Shown here: positions 27,720-36,646 of the stretch, one piece after another
How positions within the stretch are numbered: position 1 is the first letter of the stretch
How the letters are laid out: each line of letters opens with the position of its first letter
Source: Clostridiales bacterium
GTDB lineage: Bacteria > Bacillota > Clostridia > Oscillospirales > CAG-272
Assembly: GCA_012800735.1 (NCBI GenBank)
Contig: JAAZIU010000013.1
Coordinates: 1-64,000, forward strand
Direction: 5' to 3'
DNA: 64,000 nucleotides
Translations under genes and position numbers: made by a program
The notes under the pieces: generated by a model
Database searches by the model: none
What the model saw: the letters and a program-made list of their open reading frames with translations, nothing else
Told to the model about the DNA's origin: nothing

Positions 27720-29624
27720 TTAAGATTTTCGCTTCGGTTCACGGTCTGATAAAAAGCTGCGGATTTCAGCTATAAAATCTTCGCCGAACTGTCGGTATTT
27801 ATTCTGACCGACTCCGCTGCATGAAAGAAACTGTTCGCGATCCAAAGGACTTTTTTTGACGATCTCAATGAGGGTTTTGTCAGAAAATACCATATACGGC
27901 GGGATTCCGCGGTTATCTGAAAGCTTTTTTCGAAGCGCGCGAAGCCGCTCGAACAGATCAGTTTTTCTTATCTCGGCATCGTCAAGGGCTGCGGCAGAGC
28001 CGTCACGGGGAAGCGGAACAACTTCCTCGGTTTTTTTGGCGCTTCCTTTGCTTTGATATCTCGGGTCGTTCTTTATATAGATTTTATCGTCTTTTTTGAG
28101 TTTTTCATCTCCGATTTCCAGGGTACGGTATTTACCCGTCGAATATTCAAGCAATCCGCGAGAAACAAGGGTGTCTATCAGACGCCTGATATCCGCGAGA
28201 GGCATAAGCGAAAGCGCGCCGTAATAAATCTCCTCGTCCAATCCGAGACGCTTCACCGCGTCGGTGCGGCTTCCTTTGAGCGCGTCCGCCAGGTTTGAAG
28301 CGCCTATCCCGAAACCGAATCCGTTTTCATTGAATCTGTGAAGGAATTTCAGCGCAATTCCGGCTTCCTTTGTCACATCGGTGGTCTTATATCTACCCAA
28401 ACAGTTAGCGCAGTTTCCGCAGTTGCCCGATCGCTGCTGCGTTTCACCGAAATACTCAAGAATAAAATGGCGCAGACAGCCGGGAGTCAAACAGTAATCA
28501 ACCATAAGATCGAGGCGTTTTAAGTCGCGTTCTCTGAGTTCGGCTAAGGTTTTCTCGTCGAGATCTGCGCCTTCGGAGGAATTTTCGATGAGAAACTTAC
28601 CGATTATAACATCCTGACCGCTGTAAAATAAGATACATTCGGCGGCGGCTCCGTCACGGCCGGCTCGGCCGGCTTCCTGATAATAGCTTTCCGGATTTTT
28701 CGGCATATTGTAGTGGATCACATAGCGGATATCCGGTTTGTCGATGCCCATTCCGAAAGCGTTGGTCGAAGCTATTACATCAATGCGGTCGTAGGTGAAA
28801 TCTTCCTGGTTTGCACGCCGCTCTTCGTCGTCCATACCGGCGTGGTATCTGCCGACTGAAATTCCGTCGGCCGTAAGTTTTGAGTAAAGGTCGTCTACCG
28901 TCTTTCGTGTTGAGCAATAAACAATGCCGCGGTCGGACTTATGGGCTCGAATATAATCAAGAAGCGCAGAATATTTGTTTTTCGGCTGAGCTACTTCGTA
29001 ATATAAATTATCCCGATCAAAACCGGTTACCATGACATCCGGATTGCAAAGACCGAGGTATTTTACGACATCTTCCCGAACCTGTTCGGTTGCCGTCGCG
29101 GTAAAAGCCGCGACTGTCGGGCGTTTTGAAAGGGAGCTTATAAATTCCGGGATGTCAAGGTATGAGGGACGGAAATCCTGTCCCCATTGGGATACGCAGT
29201 GCGCTTCGTCTACCGCCAAAAGAGATATTTCCACCGAGGAGGCAAAATCAAGGAATCCCTGGGTGAGCAGCCGCTCCGGCGCTACATATATGATTTTATA
29301 AAGACCGTATCTGGCGTTTGACAGCGCGAGATCGAACTGACGCTGGGTAAGCGAGCTGTTCAGATAAGCGGCGGCGACGCCGAGCTGCTTCAGCGCAGTT
29401 ACCTGATCCTTCATAAGCGAGATAAGCGGCGACACCACGAGCGTAATCCCCTGCAGCATAAGCGCCGGAATCTGATAGCAGCATGATTTGCCGGCTCCCG
29501 TCGGCATAACCGCGAAACAGTCGCGGCCGGACAAAATATCGTCTATCATCCGCTCCTGGCCGGGGCGAAAGGTGTCGTAGCCGAAAAGATTTTTGAGTAT
29601 TGTATATTTATCGTTAAAAGACAT
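27720..29624 (-). CDS. recQ: ATP-dependent DNA helicase RecQ
   Basis: FRPGQERMIDDILSGRDCFAVMPTGAGKSCCYQIPAL, DEAHCVSQWGQDFRPSY, RQC Zn site, C-terminal HRDC. Confidence 0.95.
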   Translation of the reverse strand: MSFNDKYTILKNLFGYDTFRPGQERMIDDILSGRDCFAVMPTGAGKSCCYQIPALMLQGITLVVSPLISLMKDQVTALKQLGVAAAYLNSSLTQRQFDLALSNARYGLYKIIYVAPERLLTQGFLDFASSVEISLLAVDEAHCVSQWGQDFRPSYLDIPEFISSLSKRPTVAAFTATATEQVREDVVKYLGLCNPDVMVTGFDRDNLYYEVAQPKNKYSALLDYIRAHKSDRGIVYCSTRKTVDDLYSKLTADGISVGRYHAGMDDEERRANQEDFTYDRIDVIASTNAFGMGIDKPDIRYVIHYNMPKNPESYYQEAGRAGRDGAAAECILFYSGQDVIIGKFLIENSSEGADLDEKTLAELRERDLKRLDLMVDYCLTPGCLRHFILEYFGETQQRSGNCGNCANCLGRYKTTDVTKEAGIALKFLHRFNENGFGFGIGASNLADALKGSRTDAVKRLGLDEEIYYGALSLMPLADIRRLIDTLVSRGLLEYSTGKYRTLEIGDEKLKKDDKIYIKNDPRYQSKGSAKKTEEVVPLPRDGSAAALDDAEIRKTDLFERLRALRKKLSDNRGIPPYMVFSDKTLIEIVKKSPLDREQFLSCSGVGQNKYRQFGEDFIAEIRSFLSDREPKRKS

Positions 29625-29642
29625 TCAAAATCCTGATTTTCA

Positions 29643-31094
29643 TTATCTTGCCTTTCTCCATGTAGTCGGAGAAAAGAGCAGCAGCACCGGAAATATTTCG
29701 AGACGGCCGATAAGCATATCCGCGCTCAGGACAAGCTTGCTGATGGCTGAATAGCCGGCAAAATTGCCCGACGGCCCGACATCGCCCAGCCCGGGAGCGA
29801 CATTGTTTAAAGCGGCCGAAACGGCGGTAAAGTTAGTTGTAAAGTCAAGATTGTCGACTGAAATCAAAAGCAGCGAGATGGCAAAAATGATACTATAAAT
29901 CCCGATATAGACTCTGACTCCGCGGGCAACTTCTCCGCTTATTGGTTTCCCGGAAATTCTCATCTGTTTCACGCTTTGCGGATGAATCATTTTTCTTATC
30001 GCAAGGCGGGCGGATTTAAATAATATGATAACCCGGCTTACCTTTAATCCCCCTCCGGTCGAGCCGGCGCAAGCGCCGATGAACATCAGTATTATGATAA
30101 CAGCTTTGGAAAATTCCGGCCATAGATTATAGTCCGTTGTTGTAAAACCGGAGCTTGAAATTATCGAACCCACATGAAACACCGATTTCAGCAACGCTTC
30201 TTCGGGATGCGGATAAAGTCTGCGGAGATCAAACATAATCGTAAGGGTGGAAACAGCAATTATCGCAAGATAAGTCAGCGTTTCCTCGTCTCGGAAAAAA
30301 GCCTTTAAATTTCCTGTCAGCAGAAGAAAATAAAGCGAGAAACTGATGCCGAAAAGAATCATAAAGACCGTGATTATTACCTGCTGCTCTGCGGTATACG
30401 AAGCGCAGCTGTCAGAAAGAACGCTGATACCGCCGGTTCCGGCGGTGCCAAAGGAAATACAGACAGCGTCGAAGACCGGCATCCTGAATATTATCAGAAG
30501 CCCGGTCATGACAGCGGTCATCACAACATAAATGCCGTAAAGGATACGAGCATTGCTGCGCATCTTCGGAACAAGCTTGCCGACGGACGGTCCCGGGCTT
30601 TCCGCTTTCATTATATGCAGACCGGTACCGCTGCCGGCACTGCGCGGCATTACCGCGATTATGAATATAAGCACTCCCATTCCGCCGAGCCAGTTTGTAA
30701 AGCAGCGCCAATACTGCATGCTCCGCGGCAGCGCCTCAATATCCGTAAGGGTGGTAGCGCCGGTGGTGGTAAATCCGGATATGCACTCAAACAGCGCGTC
30801 TATATAGTTCGGTATCGAACCGCTTAAGGTATACGGCAACGCTCCGACAGCCGACAGCACGATCCATGCAAGCGCGACGGTTACATAGCCCTCTTTTGCG
30901 TATACTTTGCTGAAGTCCGCCTTTAATATTATACCCCCGGCTCCGAGCAGAAAACAAAAGGCTATAACCTCTGCAAAAGCGATAATTGATGCTCTTTCGC
31001 GAAGGACCGCGGCGATTATCAGCGGCGGAATCATGAAGACTCCTTCAAGAGCAAGCATATATCCGATATATTTCAGAAGAACCCTTTTATTTAT
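29643..31094 (-). CDS. trkH: Trk/Ktr potassium uptake membrane protein TrkH, copy 1 (proposed AUA start at 31094; first ATG at 31058)
   Basis: SGFTTTGATTLTDIEALPRSMQYWRCFTNWLGGMGVLIF, GACAGSTGGGLKVSR, GNFAGYSAISKLVLSADMLIGRLEIFPVL. Confidence 0.92.
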   Translation of the reverse strand: MNKRVLLKYIGYMLALEGVFMIPPLIIAAVLRERASIIAFAEVIAFCFLLGAGGIILKADFSKVYAKEGYVTVALAWIVLSAVGALPYTLSGSIPNYIDALFECISGFTTTGATTLTDIEALPRSMQYWRCFTNWLGGMGVLIFIIAVMPRSAGSGTGLHIMKAESPGPSVGKLVPKMRSNARILYGIYVVMTAVMTGLLIIFRMPVFDAVCISFGTAGTGGISVLSDSCASYTAEQQVIITVFMILFGISFSLYFLLLTGNLKAFFRDEETLTYLAIIAVSTLTIMFDLRRLYPHPEEALLKSVFHVGSIISSSGFTTTDYNLWPEFSKAVIIILMFIGACAGSTGGGLKVSRVIILFKSARLAIRKMIHPQSVKQMRISGKPISGEVARGVRVYIGIYSIIFAISLLLISVDNLDFTTNFTAVSAALNNVAPGLGDVGPSGNFAGYSAISKLVLSADMLIGRLEIFPVLLLFSPTTWRKAR

Positions 31095-31171
31095 AAAATA
31101 TCACTCCAATCAACCGGAAAGCAGGCAACGCCAAAATAATTTCCGGTAATGAATATGATTTCCGAAAATCA

Positions 31172-32623
31172 CTAAACCGCCCTTCTCCATGTCGCGGGAG
31201 AGAAGAGCAGCAGCATCGGGAACAATTCAAGACGGCCGATAAGCATATCTGCGCTCAGGACAAGTTTGCTTATATATGAGTAGGAAGCGAAATTGCCGGT
31301 CGGTCCGACCCCGCCGAGACCGGGACCAATATTATTTATAGTAGCGGCAACTGCGGTAAAATTAGTTACAAAGTCGAAATTATCGAAGGAAATCACAAAA
31401 AGCGAGAGCGCGAATATAATACAGTAAACACTTATATATATGCTAACGCCACTTACAGTGTCTGCATCAACGGTTTTTCCGGAGATTCTAACATGCTTGA
31501 CAGCTTGCGGGTGGATCATCTTCTTTACCGCGAGGCGGGAGGATTTGAGCAGGATAAGGATACGGCTTACCTTCAGTCCTCCGCCGGTTGAGCCGGCGCT
31601 GGCTCCGATGAACATGAGCGTTATAAGGATGGTTTTTGAAAGTTCCGGCCACTTGTTGAAATCGGTTGTAGCAAAGCCGGAAGTCGTTATTATCGAACCC
31701 ACCTGAAACGCCGAATCCTTCAGCGCTTCTCCCCAGTTAGAGTAAAAACCGCGGATATTGAACATAATAACCAAAGTCGAGACGGCTATTATCCCAAGAT
31801 AAGTCATTGTCTCCTCATCTCGGAATACCGCTTTGATGTTTCCTATAAGCATAAGAAAATACATCGAAAAATTAATACCGAAAAGTATCATGAAGACAGT
31901 TATTATTATCTGCTGAGCCGAAGTATATGATGCGCAGCTGTCCGCCAATATCCCGAATCCTCCGGTTCCGGCGGTTCCGAAAGTGATGCAGACGGCGTCG
32001 AAAACCGGCATTCTGAAAATTATCAGGATAACCGCCATTAATACGGTCATCGCAACGTAAATGCCGTAAAGAATCCTTGCGTTGCTGCGCATTTTCGGGA
32101 CGAATTTGCCTACCGACGGTCCGGGGCTTTCCGCTCTCAATATATGCAGACTGGTACCGCTGCCGGGATTGAGTGGCATTATCGCAAGAATGAACACAAG
32201 AACTCCCATGCCGCCGAGCCAATGGGTAAAGCTGCGCCAATAAAGCATACTGCGCGGCAGGGCTTCAACATTTTTCAGTATGCTTGCGCCGGTGGTGGTA
32301 AATCCGGAGATACACTCAAAAACAGCGTCTATATAATGGGGGATTGAACCGCTTAATGTAAAAGGCAGCGCGCCGATAAGAGAGAGCAGGATCCAGGCAA
32401 GCGCTACGGTTACATAACCCTCTTTTGCATATACCTTGCTGAAATCCGCTTTCAAAATAATTCCGGCGGCTCCGATAACCAAACAAATTCCGATAACCTC
32501 CGCAAAAGCAATCGCCGAGGCAGTTTCGTCGAGTACAATGGATATTATCAGCGCCGGAATCATGAAAGCGCCCTCGAGAGCAAGCATATATCCGATATAT
32601 TTAAAAACAATCTTTTTATTTAT
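31172..32623 (-). CDS. trkH: Trk/Ktr potassium uptake membrane protein TrkH, copy 2 (proposed AUA start at 32623; first ATG at 32587)
   Basis: Co-linear with copy 1 along full length; SGFTTTGASILKNVEALPRSMLYWRSFTHWLGGMGVLVF. Confidence 0.92.
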   Translation of the reverse strand: MNKKIVFKYIGYMLALEGAFMIPALIISIVLDETASAIAFAEVIGICLVIGAAGIILKADFSKVYAKEGYVTVALAWILLSLIGALPFTLSGSIPHYIDAVFECISGFTTTGASILKNVEALPRSMLYWRSFTHWLGGMGVLVFILAIMPLNPGSGTSLHILRAESPGPSVGKFVPKMRSNARILYGIYVAMTVLMAVILIIFRMPVFDAVCITFGTAGTGGFGILADSCASYTSAQQIIITVFMILFGINFSMYFLMLIGNIKAVFRDEETMTYLGIIAVSTLVIMFNIRGFYSNWGEALKDSAFQVGSIITTSGFATTDFNKWPELSKTILITLMFIGASAGSTGGGLKVSRILILLKSSRLAVKKMIHPQAVKHVRISGKTVDADTVSGVSIYISVYCIIFALSLFVISFDNFDFVTNFTAVAATINNIGPGLGGVGPTGNFASYSYISKLVLSADMLIGRLELFPMLLLFSPATWRRAV

Positions 32624-32665
32624 AAAATATCACTCCCATCAACGGAAAATGACGCGGGAAACGCA

Positions 32666-34039
32666 TCACTGACTGTCGGTAAAAATATCGTTCAGCTCCA
32701 AAACAGTATGCTCTGCCGTGGTTACGATTATAACCGTATCATCTATCTGCAGATAATCGGAACCGCCCGGGAAAATGACTTTGCCCATTCTTGTAATGCA
32801 GGCGACAAGCAGATCCTTGCGGAACGGAATTCTGCTGAACGGTACCCCCAGATGCTTGGTGTCGGCGCCGACTTCGAATTCTATCGCTTCTGCTTTTTCG
32901 TCCACGATGCGATGGAGGGTAATGGCTGTGCCGCTGCCGCTGCTGCCGCTCGACATCGCGCGGACATAGCGCAGAATGTCGGTAGTTATAAGCTCCGTCG
33001 GGCAGACGGTGGAACCGATGCCCTTGTCGGCAAAAAGCACGTTATATTCGTTATGATCTAATTTGGTAATCGTCTTTGGCACTCCTGCCTTTGACGAAAA
33101 CATCGAGATAACGATATTCATCTCATCAACTCCGGTAAGAGTGACAACGGCGTCGGTTTCATCGATCCGCTCGGCTCTTAAAACTTCGTGTGAGCTGCCG
33201 TCGTCGTGAATTATAAGCGCCTTCGGAAGGCGTTCGGCAAGCTCGTTTGCGCGCTTTTCGTCTATCTCGATTATCTTTACGCCGATACCGACGTTTATAA
33301 GGTCATCGGCGAGATATTCAGCTATTGTCGAGCCGCCGATTATCATAACGTTTCTGATTTTTTGAGCGTCCAGCTCAAGCTGCTTTATGACCTTTGCGAG
33401 ATCTCGACGCGGCGCGGTTATCGTGATTTTATCGCCTGAGCGGAAGACAAATCCGCCTCTCGGGATTATAACCTCTCCGTCACGCTCGACGGCGCAGACG
33501 AGGATATGTCGCCGAAGCTCCCCCTTCATGTCGTCAATGCGGCGATTGGTAAGCGCATTTTTTTCGTCAAGCAGAAGTTCCACAAGCTCGACGCGTCCCT
33601 TCGCGAAGGCGTCAAGGTTAAGAAATGACGGAAATTCAAGGGAACGGAAAATCTGATGCGCAGTCATAAGCTCCGGGTTTATTGCCATCGAAAGTCCCAA
33701 ATCCTCGCGAAGATATTGAATCTGCTGGTTATATTCCGAATTTCGAACCCTTGAAATGGTATGGCTGCAGCCGAGTTTTTTTGCAAGAATGCAGCAAAGC
33801 AGGTTAGTTTCATCACTTGACGTCACCGCTACCATAAGGTCGCAGTTTGCGATATCCGCCTCGCGCTGCACTTCAAGCGACGCGCCGTTTCCTGAAACGA
33901 CAAGAACGTCAAGCCGCTCCTGTGAACGCTGTAAAACATCTGGATCCGAATCTATCAGAACAAGATCATGCCCTTCTTTGGATAACTGTTTTGCCAGCGT
34001 AAATCCGACATTGCCGTCGCCTATTATAGCTATTTTCAT
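32666..34039 (-). CDS. trkA: Trk potassium uptake regulatory NAD-binding protein
   Basis: MKIAIIGDGNVGFTLAKQLSKEGHDLVLIDSD; two RCK-N/RCK-C units. Confidence 0.95.
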   Translation of the reverse strand: MKIAIIGDGNVGFTLAKQLSKEGHDLVLIDSDPDVLQRSQERLDVLVVSGNGASLEVQREADIANCDLMVAVTSSDETNLLCCILAKKLGCSHTISRVRNSEYNQQIQYLREDLGLSMAINPELMTAHQIFRSLEFPSFLNLDAFAKGRVELVELLLDEKNALTNRRIDDMKGELRRHILVCAVERDGEVIIPRGGFVFRSGDKITITAPRRDLAKVIKQLELDAQKIRNVMIIGGSTIAEYLADDLINVGIGVKIIEIDEKRANELAERLPKALIIHDDGSSHEVLRAERIDETDAVVTLTGVDEMNIVISMFSSKAGVPKTITKLDHNEYNVLFADKGIGSTVCPTELITTDILRYVRAMSSGSSGSGTAITLHRIVDEKAEAIEFEVGADTKHLGVPFSRIPFRKDLLVACITRMGKVIFPGGSDYLQIDDTVIIVTTAEHTVLELNDIFTDSQ

Positions 34040-34623
34040 AAAATTCCGTCTTTCTTCAGCAGCTGCGTTTTCTTTCTCTCGGTATTTAAAATTGCCTCGT
34101 AAGCGCGTATCACTCCGTCACCGAATCCGTTTTCGTTATCCAGCATCAGATCGGCGTATTTCGACGAGGGGATTGAATACTCCCTCTCTCTGTATCTTAC
34201 GGTGGCAAGGTAGTAATCGGCTATCTCTTCGAGTGTCTGATTCTTTATTATCAAATTGCGTTTTATCCGCCGGTAAAGCCGGGTCTCGATAGATGCGGTA
34301 ACGTATATTTTATAGTCGCACAGCTCGCGCAGCTCGTCTATGCAGAACAGAAAGGCTCCGTCGAGGAGCAGATATTTGATTCCGCTTGAGATTTCATTTT
34401 TTATAAAATCATAAGCCGCCGGGCGGTTGATCGAGTCGGGATGGTTCCAGTCGGGGTATTCCTCCCCGTCAAGCGGAGATATTATCCGCGGCAGCTCTTT
34501 TTTATAAAACTTGTCGAGAAGTATATAAGAGGTACTCTCGCCTAAAATCGGAATGAGGTTTTCGCAAAGCGTTGATTTCCCGCTTGCCGAAGCTCCGGAT
34601 ACGCCGATAACAAATGCTTTCAT
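34036..34623 (-). CDS. Uridine kinase-like P-loop kinase
   Basis: GVSGASASGKSTLCENLIPIL; YPDWNHPDSINRPAAYDF; overlaps trkA by 4 nt. Confidence 0.8.
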   Translation of the reverse strand: MKAFVIGVSGASASGKSTLCENLIPILGESTSYILLDKFYKKELPRIISPLDGEEYPDWNHPDSINRPAAYDFIKNEISSGIKYLLLDGAFLFCIDELRELCDYKIYVTASIETRLYRRIKRNLIIKNQTLEEIADYYLATVRYREREYSIPSSKYADLMLDNENGFGDGVIRAYEAILNTERKKTQLLKKDGIL

Positions 34624-34742
34624 AATACAATTATACCTTGTTTTATCGTTATATTTATTTTGAATCGGTAAATATTACGGAATAATATTATGGCGGATAG
34701 CCGATTATTAAGTAAAATATGAGGGTTATTATTTCAAAGCCC

Positions 34743-34771
34743 TTGACAAAATCTCCCGGATAGGGTAAAAT
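34743..34771 (+). promoter_or_regulatory. Sigma-A promoter
   Basis: TTGACA (34743-34748), 17 bp, TAAAAT (34766-34771). Confidence 0.7.
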
Positions 34772-34808
34772 AAGACTAATCAATTATGTGATTCACGGAG
34801 GTATCAAT

Positions 34809-35609
34809 ATGTTTACTTTATCCATCGCAGGCGGCTGGCTGCCCGGTAATTATTATGAGAAATACGCGGCGGCTAAAAAATACGGATTCAAAGCGCTTGA
34901 GATGCTCGGCTGGACCGGAGTTGATCTCGACCGCGCAAGAAACGCAATCGATGAGAGTGGCGTGGCGCTTTCCGCAATTCTTACCCAGTCTACCGATCCC
35001 GAAATTCAAAAGAAGCTGGACAACAGCCACGGTATCGTCTGGGAAGACCTTTACGACGATTATGTCAAAGCGATGACCGAGACGATAAACGCCGCAGTTA
35101 AACTCAACTGCCGTCAGGTAGTCGCAGTTTCCGGAAACGAGCGCAGCGATGTTGAAAGATACACTCAGCACCTTAACATCGTAAAAGCGCTTGCCCGCGT
35201 TGCTCCGATTGCAGAAGACGCCGGAGTTACCATTGTACTAGAGCCGCTCAATATTCTCGTTGACCATATGGGTTATTATCTTGTGACATCAAAAGAAGGC
35301 TTTGATGTCATCCGCGAAGTCGGAAGCCCGAATGTCAGGCTGCTGTATGACGTTTATCACCAGCAGATCTCAGAAGGAAACATCATCAACAATATCAAGA
35401 ACAATATTGATCTGATAGGACACATCCATTTGGGCGACGTTCCCGGACGCAGGGAACCCGGAACCGGCGAGATAAATTACCGCAATGTCTTCAAAGCTAT
35501 CTGCGAATCCGGCTATACCAAATACGCCGCTCTCGAGTGCGGACTTACCACCGACCTTGATACCGGTGTCAAGAATATGCGCGCTCTTACCGACGGATAC
35601 GCCGACTGA
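34809..35609 (+). CDS. Sugar phosphate isomerase/epimerase (AP endonuclease 2-like TIM barrel)
   Basis: VTIVLEPLN, LLYDVYHQQISEGNIINNI, HIHLGDVPGRREPGTGEINY; ATG 34809 after SD cggaggt. Confidence 0.88.
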   Translation: MFTLSIAGGWLPGNYYEKYAAAKKYGFKALEMLGWTGVDLDRARNAIDESGVALSAILTQSTDPEIQKKLDNSHGIVWEDLYDDYVKAMTETINAAVKLNCRQVVAVSGNERSDVERYTQHLNIVKALARVAPIAEDAGVTIVLEPLNILVDHMGYYLVTSKEGFDVIREVGSPNVRLLYDVYHQQISEGNIINNIKNNIDLIGHIHLGDVPGRREPGTGEINYRNVFKAICESGYTKYAALECGLTTDLDTGVKNMRALTDGYAD

Positions 35610-35623
35610 TTATCAGCCTAAGC

Positions 35624-35656
35624 GGGATGACGGGGACTTCCCCGTCGTCCCTTTTT
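35624..35656. terminator. Rho-independent terminator
   Basis: gggatgacgggga / tccccgtcgtccc then tttttattt. Confidence 0.8.
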
Positions 35657-35665
35657 ATTTTATGT

Positions 35666-36646
35666 TTATATATCCAGCTCTTCTTTTTCGATTCTGAGGC
35701 AGGACAGAGCGGTAAAATCATCACGCTCGAAAAAGACGCAGACGGAGCCGTCCGGATTTATCGCGATATCGGCGTAACCGGCTTTGTCGTAAATTATCTT
35801 TCTGCTTTTGGTGCCGAGACCGTCCGGCGACAGGCGGGTGATGCAGAGCTGTCTGCGTTCCTTTTCCGAATAGCAGTTGACGAAATATATATCGTCTCCG
35901 CGACGGCAGGCAGAACCGAAGCAGACGGGATCGACAAGTTCATAGTCAAAGCGAGGTTCGGTAAATCTGCCGTCTTTTTCGTATACATATCCGCGGCGGC
36001 GCTCCGGCGAAACGTTGCGGAGATTGAAAATTATTCTGCCGTCGGGAAGGGCTGCCGCGGCAGTCTCGCTTGGATCTTTGAGACAGCCTTTTATATACTC
36101 CCGGGCGGGATACCATTTGCCGTTTTCGCAATAAAGCGCGCTTACGACCGACGGGGCGTGCGGCCGAGGAGCGCCGGGGGTTCCTTCCCCGTTCGCCATC
36201 CAGACCGGGACGATTATCCTTCCGGCTGAAACAATACCGTGACCGGGACCGGGTGCTATAACATTATATTGCCAAAGCTCCTTCAAATCGTCCGCCGCGT
36301 CTATCCGCTCCGGTTTTGAGAATGTTTTGCCTTTATCGTCGGAATATATGGTAAAAACATCGTAATAATCTATTGCGTAAACAAGACGCAGCCGACTTCC
36401 TTCGGCTATAAGAGTGGGGTTGTTGACCGCTAAATTACCTGAATAAGCCGGCTGACGGTAATATCCCCAGGTAATTCCGCCGTCTTCGCTTACCGCAGTT
36501 TCAATGGCTCTTGTATCCCAGTCGTTGAGAGTTTCTCTGCATTCATAGGCGCAGATAAGCGTCCCGCAGTCAAGCGAAACTATGGCGGGTATCCTGTGCC
36601 AGGCAAAGCCGTGTTCACCCCGCCGTATCACATCTGTTATGATCAT
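35666..36646 (-). CDS. Sialidase/neuraminidase-fold (BNR repeat) protein, no signal peptide
   Basis: RIPAIVSLDCGTLICAYECR, SEDGGITW, YSDDKGKTFSKPERI; start refined to ATG 36646 behind ggaggacag. Confidence 0.8.
   Translation of the reverse strand: MIITDVIRRGEHGFAWHRIPAIVSLDCGTLICAYECRETLNDWDTRAIETAVSEDGGITWGYYRQPAYSGNLAVNNPTLIAEGSRLRLVYAIDYYDVFTIYSDDKGKTFSKPERIDAADDLKELWQYNVIAPGPGHGIVSAGRIIVPVWMANGEGTPGAPRPHAPSVVSALYCENGKWYPAREYIKGCLKDPSETAAAALPDGRIIFNLRNVSPERRRGYVYEKDGRFTEPRFDYELVDPVCFGSACRRGDDIYFVNCYSEKERRQLCITRLSPDGLGTKSRKIIYDKAGYADIAINPDGSVCVFFERDDFTALSCLRIEKEELDI

Follow-up and report, generated by a model that had tools for sequence, protein, structure and literature searches.

A probable AUA start codon in both tandem trkH genes of an uncultured Clostridia genus

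AUA is very likely the start site of both trkH genes in the window (the whole 64,000-nucleotide stretch of DNA analysed here), and the use of this near-cognate codon is best explained as a brake on translation. The proposal draws on comparison of the start region with homologous loci in the same genus, family and order and with known TrkH structures. The genus is an uncultured one within the Clostridia; the window belongs to genome G000, and its trkH locus was compared with those of three further genomes, G001, G002 and G003.

The trkH locus and its start region

Within the window, the gene cluster runs trkA, trkH copy 2, trkH copy 1 and a recQ-like helicase gene, the last named from its sequence (Table 1). 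The two tandem trkH copies (29643-32623) are 74% identical and stand behind a single trkA, the 3' end of which lies 42 nt ahead of the copy 2 ATA. Both copies pass the cut-off of 27 for PF02386 (TrkH), copy 1 with a single match and copy 2 with pieces of 118 and 106 bits. Against the NCBIfam models they score 267 and 271 bits for TIGR00933 (curated cut-off 331) and 293 and 298 for NF008020 TrkH (curated cut-off 866); since these cut-offs are missed, the proteins belong to the TrkH superfamily but fall outside those named subgroups. No riboswitch or structured-leader match was found by Rfam at E<=1 in positions 29000-36000, and local folds near trkH were no better than those of shuffled sequences.

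Table 1. Features of the trkA-trkH locus and of the trkH start regions
Feature	Position	Strand	Remarks
trkH copy 1	29643..31094	-	483 codons from ATA to stop; PF02386 188 bits; colinear with 3pjz/4j9u
trkH copy 2	31172..32623	-	483 codons from ATA to stop; PF02386 in two pieces
trkA, ordinary ATG start	32666..34039	-	NCBIfam TrkA score above cut-off
Shine-Dalgarno core GGAG, trkH copy 1 (extended GGAG.TGAT)	31104..31107	-	direct reading; 9 nt ahead of ATA
Proposed start ATA, trkH copy 1	31092..31094	-	aligned to ATG of family relatives; ATA/ATT/ACG in sister species
Shine-Dalgarno GGGAG, trkH copy 2	32633..32637	-	direct reading
Proposed start ATA, trkH copy 2	32621..32623	-	arrangement as copy 1; found unprompted by near-cognate scan
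First in-frame ATG, copy 1; rejected as main start	31056..31058	-	weak Shine-Dalgarno; conserved coding extends upstream
Second in-frame ATG, copy 1, behind AAGGAG; possible minor internal start	31032..31034	-	-9.0 kcal/mol

On the minus strand, the frame of copy 1 opens after a TGA at 31103-31101 and reaches ATA at 31094-31092, which is followed by AAT AAA AGG GTT CTT CTG AAA TAT ATC GGA TAT and the ATG at 31058. An earlier sequence-only reading of this region had placed the start at this ATA, 9 nt behind GGAG, and direct reading bears out both its coordinates and the arrangement. As it also stated, the frame upstream of the ATG at 31058 contains no ATG, GTG or TTG back to the TGA; the same is true of both tandem copies, in which these codons are absent from the upstream stop to codon 13. 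A CTG (codon 7) that it had assigned to copy 1 alone is indeed missing from copy 2 in the window; G002 and G003 also have it in copy 1. Copy 2, which had received little attention, repeats the arrangement of copy 1, with GGGAG followed by ATA.

Comparison of trkH N-termini

N-termini were compared across the genus, family and order, with 105 trkH genes from outside the genus scored by script. ATG is the start codon in 98 of these, TTG in four, GTG in three and any other codon in none; three further non-genus genes, outside the script scoring, have ATG as judged by eye. Asparagine is the second residue in 102 of the 105. The closest outgroup, G064, reads ATG AAT AAA CGT TTG ATA TTA AAA TAT ATC GGC TAT ATG, colinear with the start of G000 trkH and with ATG where G000 has ATA. 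The earlier reading had proposed asking whether relatives carry ATG in place of the ATA; the outgroups do, with ATG-AAY at this position. The TrkH structures 3pjz and 4j9u, compared as deposited proteins, are homologous to and colinear with the window TrkH from residue 4: query residue 4 aligns with chain residue 4 and the N-terminus is ungapped, so the ATA codon corresponds to residue 1. Both the start position in relatives and the structure alignment thus support the proposal that the natural N-terminus maps onto the ATA.

Within the genus, the seven trkH copies of the four genomes have ATA (five copies), ATT (one) or ACG (one) at the start position. G000 and G003 each have ATA in both copies, G002 has ATA in copy 1 and ATT in copy 2, and the single copy of the more distant G001 has ACG. 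Start codons outside ATG, GTG and TTG therefore occur in 7/7 genus copies against 0/105 relatives, more than expected by chance. The outcome that would have overturned the proposal, relatives exposing the ATA as an error, did not come about: in neither paralogue do the sister species have ATG, but always ATA, ATT or ACG. An internal deletion and a stop codon disrupt copy 1 of G002 (L036 2843-3793), though its ATA and strong Shine-Dalgarno (SD) sequence are intact. In G003 (L035 2964 and 4528, minus strand), mechanical ORF calling stretches both trkH genes to an upstream in-frame TTG, masking the ATA.

A protein tree places the trkH duplication before the species split, with G001 (ACG) outside the duplicated ATA/ATT clade and G064 (ATG) also outside. 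AUG may have been lost once before the radiation of the genus, with later exchange among near-cognate codons, or it may have been lost twice; either history fits the tree. Under either history, AUG was apparently given up and has been regained in none of the genus copies seen. Between copy 1 orthologues, 4/99 sites differ in codons 2-12, all synonymously, and 33/90 differ in the 30 nt upstream of the ATA, the pairs compared not being independent. In G003 copy 2 the spacing from SD to ATA is 1 nt shorter, and the frame is therefore conserved from the ATA onward and not ahead of it.

Shine-Dalgarno strength and genome-wide use of near-cognate codons

SD strength was scored as the energy of the duplex with the anti-SD, taking as reference the ATG starts in 1.19 Mb of G000. 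The ATA of copy 1 scores -11.8 kcal/mol and that of copy 2 -12.4 kcal/mol, stronger than ~90% and 93% of genome ATG starts, respectively. These energies lie in the top 7-10% among genome ATG starts, and also among family trkH starts, and are reached by just 0.4% and 0.3% of internal ATGs. A strong SD ahead of ATA or ATT is retained in 6/6 copies of the duplicated clade, and the ACG site of G001 has a moderate one (-7.0 kcal/mol). Family trkH genes with GTG or TTG starts also tend to have a stronger SD than those with ATG, though such cases are few.

The start-codon scan covered the same 1.19 Mb, sampled in stretches that make up ~45% of the G000 genome. Early in genes, ATG shows a ~10.7-fold SD enrichment, while ATA (1.2), ATT (1.4) and ACG (1.2) stay in the range of unrelated codons; no notable early enrichment was found in this 1.19 Mb for ATA, ATT, ATC, CTG or ACG. 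Widespread use of AUA starts in G000 was rejected, given that ATA lacks SD enrichment in the sequence scanned. A search for strong SD sequences without a nearby standard start returned both trkH copies and one other convincing case, amrS.

The amrS gene (AmmeMemoRadiSam radical SAM; L076, G000:C20, 3440-4270, minus strand) has an apparent ATT start behind GAGGTGG (-15.8 kcal/mol). The ATT is retained in G002 and G003, and G050, from another family, has ATG exactly there; the ATT and the tail of the upstream gene overlap, which may constrain the codon. The infC gene (L078 ~1471, G000:C8; L077, L079) also has an apparent near-cognate start after GGAGGTG, ATC in G000 and G003 and ATT in G001; in G000 and G003, the ORF caller chooses a GTG within the SD. 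An altered initiator tRNA was also considered: two CAT tRNAs were read, both without the initiator's three G-C pairs, and the initiator tRNA was not among them.

Alternative explanations

Were translation to start at a downstream ATG (31058, or 31034 behind AAGGAG), TrkH would be 12 or 20 residues shorter and the upstream codons would be a relic. Both ATGs have counterparts in every genus copy, and the AAGGAG ahead of 31034, which coincides with Glu-Gly codons and has a weaker counterpart in copy 2, reaches -9.0 kcal/mol; a shorter copy 1 product is therefore possible. As the main start, however, a downstream ATG is very unlikely. The SD of the ATG at 31058 is nearly nil (-2.6 kcal/mol, as at its copy 2 counterpart 32587) and weaker than that of 92% of genome ATG starts, in accord with the earlier judgement that this ATG has no good SD. 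Amino-acid constraint on codons 2-12 extends all the way to the ATA, family TrkH proteins start at the ATA position, and the SD kept across the duplicated clade stands ahead of ATA or ATT. Shortening would also cost part of the first membrane segment, judging from the structure alignment and from general knowledge of TrkH. A sequencing or assembly error might be suspected given that the genus relatives include metagenome assemblies, but three separate assemblies between them have ATA in five gene copies, and two more copies have ATT or ACG, so that a base error is practically excluded. Equally remote is a reading in which ribosomes enter the frame, by frameshifting or coupling, from an out-of-frame GTG within GGAGTG that opens a short frame (GTG ATA TTT TAT AAA TAA) in both window copies. 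This GTG overlaps the SD and has no SD of its own; G001 lacks it, as does copy 1 in G002 and G003, and copy 2 of G003 has it in frame. Such lack of conservation largely excludes it.

The apparent near-cognate starts of infC and amrS in G000 could suggest that start selection is generally relaxed in this organism, or that AUA is widely used. This is highly improbable given the ~10.7-fold early SD enrichment of ATG against the values for ATA, ATT and ACG in the 1.19 Mb scanned, and the small number of near-cognate candidates with a strong SD. A possible, if somewhat unlikely, reading accepts the start at ATA and treats the weak codon as neutral, low output having been tolerated and AUG lost by drift and left unrestored. 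The varying identity of the near-cognate codon agrees with this, and the broken copy in G002 suggests relaxed demand for that copy. On the other hand, a single substitution would turn any of the three codons into AUG, yet 7/7 copies lack it despite divergence as deep as that between the paralogues; the unusually strong SD and the absence of any such loss among the 105 relatives also argue against neutrality. With four genomes, it is hard to tell neutrality from selection for low output.

Proposed role of the near-cognate start

Initiation very probably takes place at the AUA itself, judging from the comparisons above. The codon would be decoded by initiator fMet-tRNA with a third-position mismatch, the strong SD helix anchoring initiation there, so that each TrkH would begin (f)Met-Asn-Lys-Arg/Lys and have a normal N-terminus. 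We propose that the near-cognate codon, which takes the place of the family's ATG throughout the genus, is a built-in brake. As IF3 would often reject this codon, only part of the TrkH that an AUG would yield would be made; the start thus probably keeps TrkH output low, and perhaps below that of TrkA from the same gene cluster. Selection for such low output appears somewhat favoured. The level of TrkH could also track the supply of IF3, although a physiological response by this route seems rather unlikely. More speculative still, and improbable, is that infC, trkH and amrS might form an IF3-responsive translational regulon linking potassium uptake to initiation-factor or ribosome supply. We know of no link between trkH and IF3.

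Few bacterial genes are known with starts outside AUG, GUG and UUG, and gene callers are blind to them; here they would shorten TrkH or take an upstream TTG, as in G003. The trkH case suggests that near-cognate starts are detectable through comparison alone. A transporter gene that apparently uses near-cognate codons genus-wide would be a clean natural case of a start codon setting expression.

Comparison with known systems

No earlier report of a non-canonical trkH start was found in the open-licence literature searched. The sequence-only reading had called AUA initiation very rare in bacteria; rare it is, but there are precedents in Staphylococcus aureus, where infC, ccpN and citZ start with AUA and cvfC1 with AUU (PMC13009471). 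These AUA and AUU starts give ~10% of the output of AUG in poor medium, and the near-cognate start of ccpN up to 30% in rich medium (PMC13009471). Near-cognate starts, AUA included, are thus already known in bacteria, and what trkH would add is comparative evidence of unusual clarity. Like trkH, ccpN and cvfC1 combine an extended SD with an AUA or AUU start, and the ccpN start is conserved in B. subtilis too (PMC13009471). The S. aureus starts differ in having been mapped by Ribo-Ret and reporters, whereas the trkH start is deduced from comparison, and ccpN, cvfC1 and citZ encode a cytoplasmic regulator, a small protein and an enzyme rather than a transporter.

The infC gene starts with AUU in E. 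coli, ATC in Streptomyces and AUA in S. aureus; as in trkH, the near-cognate class is kept while the codon varies, and the SD is strong. In the present genus infC appears to be patterned in the same way (ATC, ATC, ATT). IF3 autocontrol via near-cognate starts is established outside this genus (PMC5472188); infC is regulated by its own product, whereas trkH encodes a membrane transporter. In Streptomyces, the GTC start of sigR is repressed by IF3 (PMC5472188). SigR and RsrA are encoded together, and the non-canonical start lowers SigR relative to RsrA, as may be the case here for TrkH relative to TrkA, although GTC differs from the trkH codons and the sigR result is experimental. Three traits of infC, ccpN and sigR-type starts recur in trkH: a homologous start codon other than ATG, GTG or TTG (ATA in both window copies), its non-canonical nature conserved across species (7/7 copies), and a strong or extended SD (both window copies). 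By analogy, the trkH start is most likely a conserved weak start of the infC, sigR and ccpN kind.
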